64,000 nucleotides of DNA, taken from the NCBI RefSeq assembly GCF_001971705.1, contig NZ_CP019327.1:2666001-2730000 (forward strand). The letters are read 5' to 3'. This DNA comes from Natronorubrum daqingense. Its GTDB lineage: Archaea; Halobacteriota; Halobacteria; Halobacteriales; Natrialbaceae. The position numbers and the translations under genes are program-made. Of the stretch, positions 43,135-47,015 are shown piece by piece (the first letter of the stretch is position 1; each line of letters begins with the position of its first letter). The notes beneath the pieces were generated by a model, which saw only the letters and a list, made by a program, of their open reading frames with translations, made no database searches and was not told where the DNA came from.

Positions 43135-44661
43135 ATGCAACTTCCCGAACAACAGGTCGCGGTCGTCGAGGCCGCGAGCGCAGACGAGGCCCAATCCGTC
43201 GACGCCCTCGCTGCGGCGACCGACCTCCCCCCCGAGACCGTCACCGGCGCGGTTTTCGCGCTCGAGGAGGAGGGGTTGGTCGCCGTCGACGAACGCGTCG
43301 ACGAAACGATCGCGCTCACCGACGAAGGGCGCGAATACGCGGACGCACAGCTCCCGGAGATCCAACTCTACGAGGCCGCACTCGAGGCCGGTGCCGACGC
43401 CGACGCCGTCGGAATGGGCCAGGCGATCGGAACGAGCGGCCTCGAGGGGCCACAGGTCGACATCGCCCTCTCGAACTACGCCCGGAAGGGCTACGGCGTC
43501 GTCGACAGCGGCGAGATCACCGCCGATCCGGACGCCGACCCGACCGCCGACGCCGAGGCGAACGCACTCGACGCCCTCGCCGGCGAGGACGGCGTTCCCG
43601 CCGATAGCGTCGACGCGGACGAGGAGACCCTCGAGCACCTCGAGCGACGGGGCTTACTCGAGGTGAGCGAATCGACCGTTCGCGAGGTGACGCTCACCGA
43701 GGTGGGCGTCACGGAACTGATGGCCGGTATCGAGACGGCCGAGACGGTCGGCCAGGTCACGCCCGAACTCCTCACGAGCGGCGACTGGGAGTCGGTCGAG
43801 TTCGCCGAGTACAACGTCGAGGCCGACGCGGAGTCGGTCGAGGGCGGGCGCGTCCACATCCTCCGACAGATGTCCGAGCGGGTCAAAGACGTGCTCGTCG
43901 GCATGGGCTTTCAGGAGATGGACGGCCCCCACGCCGACGCGGACTTCTGGATCAACGACTGTCTGTTCATGCCACAGGACCATCCCGCGCGCACGCACTG
44001 GGACCGGTTCGCCCTCGAGCAGCCGACGCACATCGACGAGTTGCCGGAGGACCTCGTCGAACGCGTTGAGCGCGCCCACAGAGAGGGCGTCGGCGAGGAC
44101 AGCGAAGGCTACCACTCGCCGTGGGACGAGGACTTCGCGCGGGCGCTCGCCCTGCGCGGACACACCACCTCGCTCTCGACGCGGTACCTTTCGGGGACCG
44201 AAATTGGCGAGATCGAACCGCCCGCACGATTCTTCAGCGTCGAGAAGGCCTACCGAAACGACACGCTGGACGCGACGCACTTGCTCGAGTTCTACCAGAT
44301 CGAAGGCTGGGTCATGGCGGAGGACCTCTCCGTGCGCGACCTGATGGGCACCTTCGAGGAGTTCTACGCCCAGTTCGGGATCGAGGATATCCAGTTCAAA
44401 CCCCACTATAACCCCTACACGGAGCCCAGCTTCGAACTGTTCGGTACCCACCCCACGACGGGCGAACTGATCGAGATCGGCAACTCGGGTATCTTCCGCG
44501 AGGAGATGTTAGAGCCCCTCGGCGTCGACTGCGACGTCATGGCCTGGGGGCTCGCCTTAGAGCGCCTCGCGATGCTCACCACGGGCGCGGAGGACATCCG
44601 CGACCTCCACGGCACGCTCGCCGACCTCGAGTTCCTGCGAAACGCGGAGGTGACCTACTGA
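43135..44661 (+). CDS. pheS: Phenylalanyl-tRNA synthetase alpha subunit
   Basis: The 508-aa protein has the archaeal/eukaryotic-type N-terminal winged-helix region (about 1-200), with repeated HTH-like segments such as EGLVAVDERVDETIALTDEG. The class II core follows: GFQEMDGPHADADFWINDCL, DHPARTHWDRF, FFSVEKAYRNDTLDATHL (motif 2), and GNSGIFREEMLEPLG with WGLALERLAML (motif 3). It activates Phe and charges tRNA-Phe with PheT. Its stop codon overlaps the pheT start by one base. Confidence 0.97.
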   Translation: MQLPEQQVAVVEAASADEAQSVDALAAATDLPPETVTGAVFALEEEGLVAVDERVDETIALTDEGREYADAQLPEIQLYEAALEAGADADAVGMGQAIGTSGLEGPQVDIALSNYARKGYGVVDSGEITADPDADPTADAEANALDALAGEDGVPADSVDADEETLEHLERRGLLEVSESTVREVTLTEVGVTELMAGIETAETVGQVTPELLTSGDWESVEFAEYNVEADAESVEGGRVHILRQMSERVKDVLVGMGFQEMDGPHADADFWINDCLFMPQDHPARTHWDRFALEQPTHIDELPEDLVERVERAHREGVGEDSEGYHSPWDEDFARALALRGHTTSLSTRYLSGTEIGEIEPPARFFSVEKAYRNDTLDATHLLEFYQIEGWVMAEDLSVRDLMGTFEEFYAQFGIEDIQFKPHYNPYTEPSFELFGTHPTTGELIEIGNSGIFREEMLEPLGVDCDVMAWGLALERLAMLTTGAEDIRDLHGTLADLEFLRNAEVTY

Positions 44662-46490
44662 TGCCAACCGTCGACATCGACCCAGACGAACTCCGAGAAC
44701 TGACCGGCCACGAGGAAACGAGCGACGACGATCTCATCGACGACCTCTTCGGCCTCGGCCTCGAGTTCGAAGGCCGAACCGAAGACGGCGAGTTCGAACT
44801 CGAGTTCGCCCCGGATCGACTCGATCGCCTCTCCGTCGAAGGCGTCGCCCGCTCGATGCGCTATCACTACGGCGACGCTCGAGGGGTCCACGTCCCCTCG
44901 CCGAACTCGGCCGAGTGGACCATCGAGGTCGACGAGTCGGTTCCGGTCGAGCGACCGTACGTCACTGGCGCGGTGATCCGCGACGTGAACCTCGATGAGG
45001 ACGCACTGGACTCGCTGATCCAGCTGCAAGAAAAGCTCCACGCGACGATGGGGCGAAAGCGCGCGAAGGGAGCCATCGGGATTCACGATCTGACGATGCT
45101 CAAAGGGAGTACGGCGACGGACGGCGGCGGGTCGGCGATCCAGTACGTCGGCGTCGACCCCGAGGAGGATACGTTCGTTCCGCTCGATTCGGACGTCGAG
45201 ATGACGCCGGCACAGGTCCTCGAGGACCACCAGACGGGCCAGACCTACGCCGACCTCGTCAGCGGCTACGAGCGCTACCCCGCGATCTACGACGATCTCG
45301 GGCTGTTCTCGTTCCCGCCGGTGATCAACGGCCGGCGCACCGAGGTCTCGACGGACTCTCGAGACCTCTTCGTCGAGATGACGGGCACCGATCAGTGGAC
45401 AATCGACAAGATGCTGAACATCGTCTGCTACGCGCTCTCTGCGCGCGGGGCGACGATCGAGGATGTTTCCGTCGAATACCCCGATCACGAGTTGGTGCGA
45501 CCGGATCTCTCGACGAAGACGAAGACGGTCGCACACAGCCGTATCGAAACCATTCTCGGGATCGATTTCGATCCTGCGGAAGTGATCGACCTGGCCGAAC
45601 GCTCGGGACTCGATGCCATGAAACGCGAGGATGGAGAGACGGGCAATGGCGAAGAGAGCATCACGCCGCTGGCAGATCGAGATGGACTCGAGGAACGAGA
45701 CGCCGCGAACAGCTCGGACACGCCCCAGGCACCCGACGACGCCGCGTCATCGGGCGACCTCGTCTACGAGGTCACCATCCCGCCCTACCGCGTCGACGTG
45801 CTCCACCCGCTCGACGTCATCGACGACCTCGGGCGCGCCTACGGCTTCAACGACCTCGAGCCCAAGTACCCCGACGTGGGCACCGTCGGCGGCCGCCACG
45901 AACGTTCGCGACTCGAGCGGGCCGTTCGCACGCAGCTAACCGGCCTCGGCTTCGAGGACATGCTCAACTTCCACATGATCAACGAAGAGGAGAACTACGA
46001 GCGCCTCGAGCTACCCCCGGATTCGGCGGCCTACGGCGCCGGCGAGCCGGCGACGATCAAAGAGCCCTACAGCGAGGACTACACGATGCTCCGGACGTGG
46101 GTGCTCCCCTCGCTCGTGATGGTTCTCGAGCGAAACACCCACCGCTCGTACCCACAGCACCTCTCCGAGATCGGCTTCCGCGCGGCACTCGACGACGGCG
46201 AGAACACCGGCGTCGGCGAGAGCCGACACGTCGGGGCCGTCCTCGCGAACCACGACGCAGGGTACGAAGACGCCAAGGCGCGGCTTCAGGCGGTCGTCGA
46301 CGATTTCGACGGCGACCTCGAGACCCCGCCGACCGACCACCCATCCTTCATTTCGGGTCGAACGGCAGCAATCGTCGTCGACGGCGAAGAAGTCGGCGTA
46401 ATCGGCGAGGTTCACCCCAAAGTGCTCGTCGAACACGACCTCGAGGTTCCCGTTGCGGCCTTCGAGTTCGATCTCGAGGCGTTGCGGTAA
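44661..46490 (+). CDS. pheT: Phenylalanyl-tRNA synthetase beta subunit
   Basis: The 609-aa protein is of archaeal type: B1-like N-terminus, B3/4 editing domain (RKRAKGAIGIHDL, YPAIYDDLGLFSFPPVINGR), B5 (VTIPPYRVDVLHPLDVIDDL) and a catalytic-like B6/7 end. An acidic low-complexity insert of about 50 residues, near 317-366, separates the two halves of B5 and is not expected in the core family. The last twelve codons and stop are copied downstream with three changes (46556-46594). Confidence 0.96.
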   Translation: MPTVDIDPDELRELTGHEETSDDDLIDDLFGLGLEFEGRTEDGEFELEFAPDRLDRLSVEGVARSMRYHYGDARGVHVPSPNSAEWTIEVDESVPVERPYVTGAVIRDVNLDEDALDSLIQLQEKLHATMGRKRAKGAIGIHDLTMLKGSTATDGGGSAIQYVGVDPEEDTFVPLDSDVEMTPAQVLEDHQTGQTYADLVSGYERYPAIYDDLGLFSFPPVINGRRTEVSTDSRDLFVEMTGTDQWTIDKMLNIVCYALSARGATIEDVSVEYPDHELVRPDLSTKTKTVAHSRIETILGIDFDPAEVIDLAERSGLDAMKREDGETGNGEESITPLADRDGLEERDAANSSDTPQAPDDAASSGDLVYEVTIPPYRVDVLHPLDVIDDLGRAYGFNDLEPKYPDVGTVGGRHERSRLERAVRTQLTGLGFEDMLNFHMINEEENYERLELPPDSAAYGAGEPATIKEPYSEDYTMLRTWVLPSLVMVLERNTHRSYPQHLSEIGFRAALDDGENTGVGESRHVGAVLANHDAGYEDAKARLQAVVDDFDGDLETPPTDHPSFISGRTAAIVVDGEEVGVIGEVHPKVLVEHDLEVPVAAFEFDLEALR

Positions 46491-46594
46491 GATAATCGAC
46501 GGTTTTTGGTCCAGATTTTTGCGCGAACGGCGACGCCGTGAGCGGAAAAAGGTGGGTTGCAGCCTTCGAGTTCGATCTCGAGGCGCTGCAGTAA
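46452..46594 (+). repeat. Duplicated 39-bp tail of pheT
   Basis: The final 39 bp of pheT (46452-46490, encoding VAAFEFDLEALR and stop) recur at 46556-46594 with 36 of 39 bases equal, and encode VAAFEFDLEALQ and stop. All three changes are transitions. The copies are separated by 65 bp containing T-rich stretches. This looks like an att-like direct repeat or an old tail duplication. Confidence 0.85.
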
Positions 46595-46817
46595 GCGGTC
46601 TTCGTTCGCTCTCGAGTTCTGGAGCCGACCTGTGGTCGCGGTCCAGCGTATTGTACCGCGAGCGAGTGAAACGAGCGAGCGGGCCGACGACTGATGTGAG
46701 CGAGCAACGCGAGCGAACGGAAGGAGGAGTGCTTTTCATCGAAGTTTTGCCGAGCGACGACGCGCCGTGCGGCAGCGTAGCTGCCGTCGGCGCGAAAAAG
46801 CGCAGCGCAAAAGTTCG
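46595..46817. other. Repeat-rich spacer after pheT
   Basis: No gene is supported here. The sequence is dominated by GCGAGCGAGTGAAACGAGCG-type low-complexity and by short inverted segments such as TGCGGCAGC with its near complement. Such GCGAGC-rich spacers recur in haloarchaeal genomes. A structured RNA is possible but I see no known family. Confidence 0.4.
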
Positions 46818-47015
46818 TTAGAATTCGTGTTCGACGTCCTCTTTGTCGGCCTTTTGGATAATGATCTTGCCGTCCCGAACTCGAACGAAGACTTCGTCTC
46901 CGATATCCATCCCCGCGACTGCGAGTTCGTCCTCGTGGAGATTGAGGTGGACGTTGTGATAGTTGCCATCTTCGTCTTTCGCACCGCTTGGACTCAGCTT
47001 CTTTTTCCGTACCAT
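46818..47015 (-). CDS. Small AbrB-like DNA-binding protein
   Basis: The 65-aa protein is basic at the N-terminus (VRKKKLSPSGAKDEDGN) and ends with the swapped-hairpin pattern ELAVAGMDIGDEVFVRVRDG. That is typical of SpoVT/AbrB-fold DNA-binding proteins, including toxin-antitoxin and regulator types. It has no toxin neighbour. A TATA box on the minus strand lies at 47046-47055. It is divergent from the chromosomal protein MC1 gene. Confidence 0.72.
   Translation of the reverse strand: MVRKKKLSPSGAKDEDGNYHNVHLNLHEDELAVAGMDIGDEVFVRVRDGKIIIQKADKEDVEHEF

Follow-up and report, generated by a model that had tools for sequence, protein, structure and literature searches.

A short hairpin element, here called E, lies directly behind many haloarchaeal housekeeping genes, and beyond it the last few dozen letters of the gene usually appear again. 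The repeated 3′ end of pheT in Natronorubrum daqingense, found in a window of 64,000 nucleotides (the whole stretch of DNA that was analyzed), is one case of this pattern. E is non-coding, conserved, and covarying, and the pattern is widespread in the class and undescribed in the open-access literature searched, in which we found no account of E, none of gene-tail copies linked to a hairpin, and no occurrence of the exact sequence of the E left arm.

Results

The end of pheT is repeated on the far side of a hairpin element

The pheT gene (44661–46490, plus strand, as are the tail copies, the leader, and E described below) is a 609-aa ORF encoding the phenylalanyl-tRNA synthetase beta chain, with Pfam matches to PF17759 and PF03484 above the cut-off. 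The original prediction, made from the sequence of the window, held that the last 39 bp of this gene recur after 65 bp, and alignment confirmed this: the working gene end including its stop codon (tail copy 1, 46452–46490) and tail copy 2 (46556–46594) are identical at 36 of 39 positions, with a 65-bp spacer between them (46491–46555), and a repeat finder extended the match by one base (37/40). The second tail was also correctly predicted to code up to a stop, reading VAAFEFDLEALQ-stop in its own frame, and the gene proper ends ...LEALR-stop; two of the three differences between the tails are synonymous and the third replaces R with Q. A chance or low-complexity repeat was ruled out, as the runner-up ungapped downstream recurrence of the tail reached 20/39 and, among the 43 gene ends that were checked in the window, pheT alone had a tail copy.

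The spacer is made up of a 12-bp leader (46491–46502), running from the pheT stop codon to E, and E itself (46503–46555), the sole match in the window with zero expected. At other E loci, the position of the leader is usually taken by a terminator-like hairpin. Tail copy 2 begins directly at the right edge of E. Farther downstream, another hairpin, of a different subtype (TTTTCATCGAAGTTTTGC ... GCAAAAGTTCG) occupies window positions 46733–46817; its arms (46740–46750 and 46807–46817) pair at 10 of 11 positions, it adjoins the stop codon of a convergent gene (46818–47015), and its TTTTCATCGAAGTTTTGCC motif is also present in the same intergenic region of genus members. A gene for an MC1 chromosomal protein (PF05854; 47246–47566) lies shortly downstream of the pheT locus.

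E is a covarying hairpin widespread in the class

E has the general form TTTTTGGxNNAGATTTTT-hairpin-AAAAAGGTN'N', and at pheT it spells TTTTTGGTCCAGATTTTTGC...AAAAAGGTGG. There, its 5′ part comprises a T5 tract (46503–46507), GG, T, CC (46511–46512), AGA, and another T5 tract (46516–46520); after the inner hairpin follow an A5 tract (46546–46550), GGT, and GG (46554–46555). The CC pairs with the last GG and T5 with A5. The fold of 46491–46555 has an energy of −21.8 kcal/mol with a z score of −1.85, a modest value that concerns the pheT spacer alone. Among 138 distinct copies of E, 137 have the two bases (NN) preceding AGA complementary to the two that follow GGT, whereas shuffled partners gave a mean of 62 and a maximum of 78; the combinations CC/GG, GC/GC, GG/CC, and CG/CG are all in use. 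Selection therefore maintains the outer helix, whose end coincides with the right edge of E. The T5 and the A-tract are invariant. RNAalifold, applied to 39 elements aligned with MAFFT, recovered the inner hairpin only (six pairs, each with some two-sided change); misplacement of the 3′ arm in part of the alignment rows hid the outer pairs, which were assessed by direct counts over the 138 copies.

The left arm of E occurs once in the window, with zero occurrences expected, and the same genome contains 13 matches to E (at most 3 mismatches in 20) at nine loci. These loci are often arrays of the form tail-E-tail-E-tail, and at all nine the tail of a neighboring gene is copied beside E, weakly so at L044 (21/29). 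The pattern TTTTTGGNNNAGATTTTTN{14,44}AAAAAGGT was found in 167 of 391 genomes and in 55 of 86 genera of the class, and its reversed control gave 0 matches in every listed row. The CC/GG form is found in many named haloarchaea and was absent from the viral contigs searched. Carriers of E include Haloferax species such as H. prahovense, H. gibbonsii, and H. sulfurifontis. No Rfam covariance model matched positions 46400–46900 up to an E-value of 10.

T-tracts are present on both strands of E at gene 3′ ends, suggesting that E is probably a bidirectional transcription terminator. In Haloferax volcanii, T-stretch and hairpin terminators have been reported, with hairpins near termination sites; T5 tracts terminate transcription, T5C by 95% in the reported test (PMC7237163). 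E resembles these terminators in having T5 tracts and a hairpin behind genes. The H. volcanii terminators are single, whereas E forms a dispersed, covarying family accompanied by gene-tail copies, which the accessible part of that report does not describe.

A sense-oriented E and a copy of the gene tail go together

We compared gene ends with and without E. A tail copy was present at 50 of 59 gene ends with a sense E within 110 nt and at 13 of 402 gene ends with no E within 260 nt. A second sample consisted of elements retrieved by pattern from named genomes, less 14 already in the first sample and six near contig edges; in it, 35 of 41 elements behind a sense gene had a tail copy, compared with 3 of 24 elements that follow no sense gene. 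Of the 138 E copies of the first sample, 53 had a tail copy beginning at most 12 nt from the right edge of E, and the score threshold was reached by 58/138 true pairings versus 48/1094 control pairings. The coupling of sense E with a tail copy is thus well supported. Simple duplication of the tail, which the original prediction had offered as its alternative, proved insufficient, because tail copies without E are rare (the 13/402 above). Most of the 14 tail copies whose spacer had no E motif showed, by eye, a degenerate or E-like hairpin.

The host genes matched Dph6, GatB, and ArgF above the model cut-offs; IleS, GyrA, and malic enzyme were best matches that stayed below the cut-offs because the queries were gene pieces. 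Pfam further indicated TiaS, EtfA, a DapD-like protein, aminotransferase V, and others, and the ATPase host gene matched NF010335, a PINA-type ATPase, above the cut-off. The host gene of the E array at L113 (L113:1899–3356) is a piece of the DNA polymerase II large subunit (PolC DP2) with a LAGLIDADG domain, which suggests an intein.

In the 32 independent junctions left after the 53 pairs had been narrowed first to 48, the copy starts 0–8 nt past the right edge of E. The duplicated tail is about 20–130 bp long and varies among loci. This geometry could arise by hairpin-driven template switching, in which a newly copied E folds and frees a strand end at the helix base, and this end re-anneals 104–281 bp upstream and recopies the tail. 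The copy does begin at the helix base, the distance back is short, and GGT-like microhomology is slightly enriched ahead of the copy start (AGGT at 4 of 32 junctions versus 1.4 expected), although this excess is weak. Template switching does not fit the dependence of the copy on a sense gene before E, since a hairpin alone should duplicate any preceding DNA; moreover, the expected intermediate, a sense E without a tail copy, is uncommon (9 of 59 gene ends), and a second E is usually absent. We therefore regard template switching as quite improbable.

At elements with no tail copy, the mean scores of inverted copies equaled those of the control, with a few single scores up to 19. Half of the first-sample elements that scored below the threshold (40/80) were in antisense orientation, and a convergent gene had its stop at their right edge, compared with 7.6% at random positions, and several others adjoin tRNA 3′ ends. 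The tRNA genes at L065, L101, L127, L128, L135, and L136 are followed by a spacer, a repeat of their own 3′ tail, and then directly an antisense E; at L127 and L128, the spacer also contains an inverted T-arm, giving a long fold-back. In several families, an antisense or neighboring E lies beside the same two conserved genes (L071, L082, L124, and L140; L066, L102, L109, L127, and L150), which we take to be those of elongation factor 2 and a CDC48-type ATPase.

The downstream copy at pheT is the native gene end

In all eight genus members that have no pheT repeat, the DNA after pheT, from near the stop codon, aligns with the DNA after tail copy 2, and the spacer has no collinear counterpart. 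Copy 2 is therefore the old, native end of the gene, displaced by the spacer and the new tail. We surveyed pheT in 51 of 61 family genomes and in two genomes of other families, with two duplicate loci removed. The tail copy was present in four of the 51 family genomes (the source genome, its sister G003, G014, and G041), and absent from the other 47. A weak second match in G058 (26/30, 1.17 kb downstream, without E) was taken as chance. In G014 and G041 (L013 and L014), the spacer is a diverged E-like hairpin with a T-tract, CCAT, GTTTTGC ... AAAAG, and ATGG, and judging from these two loci, other hairpin subtypes may act alike.

The pheT repeat had originally been read as an attachment-site scar left after an integrase-bearing element was lost. 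The geometry of that proposal stands: direct repeats of a gene 3′ end flank inserted DNA, the native copy lies downstream, and presence is patchy (4/51). Its departed element and its integrase do not. The spacer is no empty scar and itself holds a structured, dispersed, conserved element that is the same at many unrelated genes, and no longer insert between the pheT tails was found in the 51 family genomes, which were inspected to 1.5 kb downstream. The accompanying statement that no integrase lies nearby was borne out, with the nearest Phage_integrase match (PF00589) starting about 77 kb away, outside the window. These observations largely refute the scar of a lost integrase-bearing element, which we consider very unlikely.

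The same survey bears on an ordinary tandem duplication of the unit of tail and E, in a gene already terminated by E, followed by loss of the last E. Perfect tandem arrays do exist (ileS of G006, L113, and L160), and distal E copies are often truncated (L055 and L057). An ancestral E at pheT would, however, require many losses to account for the 47 of 51 family genomes with no copy, and a sense E with no copy is, again, uncommon (9/59 gene ends). Tandem duplication accounts for the growth of arrays and not for their first appearance, and we give it a slender chance as the origin of the pattern.

Presence of the copies also varied within the genus: among ten genomes, two had a copy at pheT, two at malic enzyme, four at the ATPase gene, three at argF, and six at ileS. 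The ATPase gene of G002 has E without a tail copy, and that of G005 has an extra gene-proximal unit ahead of the unit common with G009. At ileS, the source genome has one clean 148-bp stretch more than its sister, composed of the end of a shorter gene, a stop, a hairpin, E, a seam, and a tail; the displaced ileS copy has a Ser-Asp-stop ending, as in the sister and most of the genus. This difference appears to be an insertion, a polarity suggested by the C-terminal codons common to relatives; loss in the sister is possible.

The two tails differ like functional alleles, and some seams are shared across families

We counted differences in 48 tail pairs (the 53 pairs minus two without a usable ORF and three removed by filters) and found 111 synonymous and 30 non-synonymous ones. 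Free decay of copy 2 combined with synonymous-only change in copy 1 would be expected to give 49.3 ± 5.7 non-synonymous differences, with one of 2000 simulations as low as observed, and full neutrality would give 99 ± 5.5. By codon position, the differences numbered 23, 9, and 110, being mostly at synonymous third positions. A diversity-generating retroelement had been considered in view of the gene-end repeat lying beside a hairpin; as far as inspected, the differences showed no particular preference for adenines. In 39 of the 48 pairs, the aligned codon of copy 2 is still an in-frame stop, and 10 of these 39 use a different stop codon; this count left out L095, L134, and L135 (non-protein or doubtful) and array rows. 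From the ratio of differences and the retained stops, it follows that the tails differ as two functional alleles do. Translation of copy 2 in a fixed frame with the gene was rejected, as copy-to-copy distances of 104, 236, 148, and 156 place it in different frames. No mismatch gradient was seen along the tail across the tail pairs. The freshest pairs were 100% identical, some including untranslated sequence; in Halopiger (L341), identical stretches of 129/129 bp flank E exactly to its first T, in the arrangement [X][E + 5 nt][X].

Of the independent junctions, 23 had a filler ≥4 nt long. In 11 of these, the first 3–4 nt past E matched the gene and then came one extra base, mostly C; there were 0 in-register matches and 1 two-base shift in the same set. 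The position of the extra base hardly differs between unrelated genes across the 32 independent junctions (e.g., L038, L132, L161, and L178). Some seams are common to different families, with each tail matching its own gene (malic enzyme in G000 and G087; M29 peptidase in G158 and G092), and the ileS seam ATGCC occurs in four genus members, Halopiger, and Natrialba. Junctions are thus inherited or transferred, and the tails are refreshed.

The identity of the fresh pairs, above all at Halopiger L341, could also be explained if E were a non-autonomous transposable element that is mobilized by an undiscovered enzyme and makes unusually long, variable target-site duplications (about 20–130 bp), both tails then being the recipient's own. 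The co-occurrence of E with the copy and the exact right edge of E accord with this explanation. On the other hand, even fresh pairs do not agree on where the duplication ends on the left, which can be at the stop codon, within the leader hairpin, or at E. One and the same seam is found at a given gene across genera, pairs with 95–99% identity otherwise can have different stop codons, and no candidate enzyme gene recurs near E loci. Transposition thus appears unlikely.

E differs from the known mobile elements with which it was compared

Structured hairpins kept by compensatory change and located after stop codons or between genes, as E is, are found in integron attC sites and REP/RAYT systems; integron cassettes, unlike E, carry whole genes and not gene tails. 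Neither an integron integrase or RAYT nor any integrase or transposase family was seen to recur beside 127 E loci. A site-specific integrative element was rejected, as the window contains no integrase and no integrase ORF recurs at the 127 loci, and an integrative element with a fixed target and att core is at odds with the many unrelated hosts and the variable length of the duplication. A MITE or similar non-autonomous transposon fits poorly as well: the outer arms join in the helix of a single hairpin, and the duplicated stretch, which should be constant for such an element, is long and differs in length.

The integrative elements of archaeal tyrosine recombinases have att sites in the 3′ ends of genes or tRNAs (PMC8371274). 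E is like them in that the insert restores the gene end, forms a direct repeat, as seen at pheT, and pushes the native end downstream; it is unlike them in that the insert is mostly <200 bp, non-coding, and without an integrase, one hairpin serves many unrelated genes, and the tail is variable. The PATEs, MITEs, and small mobile repeats (SMRs) of Haloquadratum are likewise short, non-coding, palindrome-bearing dispersed haloarchaeal repeats; PATEs and SMRs are reported to cause no target duplication (PMC3119063), whereas E is tied to host gene-end copies of 20–130 bp and sits just behind genes. A PATE/IS605-type element is accordingly not supported, since no target duplication is expected of it and a tail copy accompanies 53 of 138 E copies.

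Discussion

The best explanation of these data, in our judgment, is that E arrives together with a new gene end and displaces the old one, as a cassette with homology arms; we hold this tentatively, at slightly less than an even chance. A sense unit of gene tail, stop, leader, and E would be placed before another copy of the tail of the same gene, so that the new end serves the gene and the old one stays just beyond E. The two tails could then act as homology arms, so that ordinary homologous recombination would carry the unit from one strain or species into a conserved gene of another, irrespective of the downstream sequence. Mating or DNA uptake would provide the occasion for entry, and arrays would lengthen or shorten through recombination between tails. 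That recombination occurs between haloarchaeal species is stated in published abstracts (PMC4500145), and E probably spreads by homologous recombination through its flanking tails. Possible, though we hold it more loosely, is the fuller proposal of an enzyme-free, self-spreading non-coding cassette: a terminator hairpin with a conserved-gene 3′ end on both sides, inserted by homologous recombination into the same gene of other strains or species and leaving the old end as a relic.

A cassette with homology arms would explain the conserved hosts, the shared seams with local tails, the patchy presence within one genus, and the absence of a neighboring enzyme gene. It is also supported by the coupling in both samples (50/59 versus 13/402 and 35/41 versus 3/24), the junction of the copy with the right edge of E, the native state of pheT copy 2 (8/8), the one-unit insertion at ileS, the additional gene-proximal unit at the ATPase gene, and the allele-like tails. 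Several observations count against it. The tail pairs show no mismatch gradient, although a simple two-crossover mosaic might yield one, and the freshest pairs are completely identical, as local duplication rather than import would make them. Antisense E at gene ends offers the arms model no tail copy to work with, yet some of these elements are found repeatedly at one gene across several families. Finally, the extra base in the seam is not accounted for by this model.

If the cassette explanation is correct, pheT, ileS, argF, gyrA, gatB, and other genes would repeatedly gain new 3′ ends by way of a tiny recurring cassette, and non-coding DNA would spread without the action of a transposase or an integrase. 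The cassette would then give rise to duplicated gene tails and novel C-termini and would serve as a countable marker for gene-end exchange, and the claim that it exploits recombination between haloarchaeal species would be testable. Even if the mobility of E is explained otherwise, the tight link between hairpin and gene tail across the whole class calls for an explanation.
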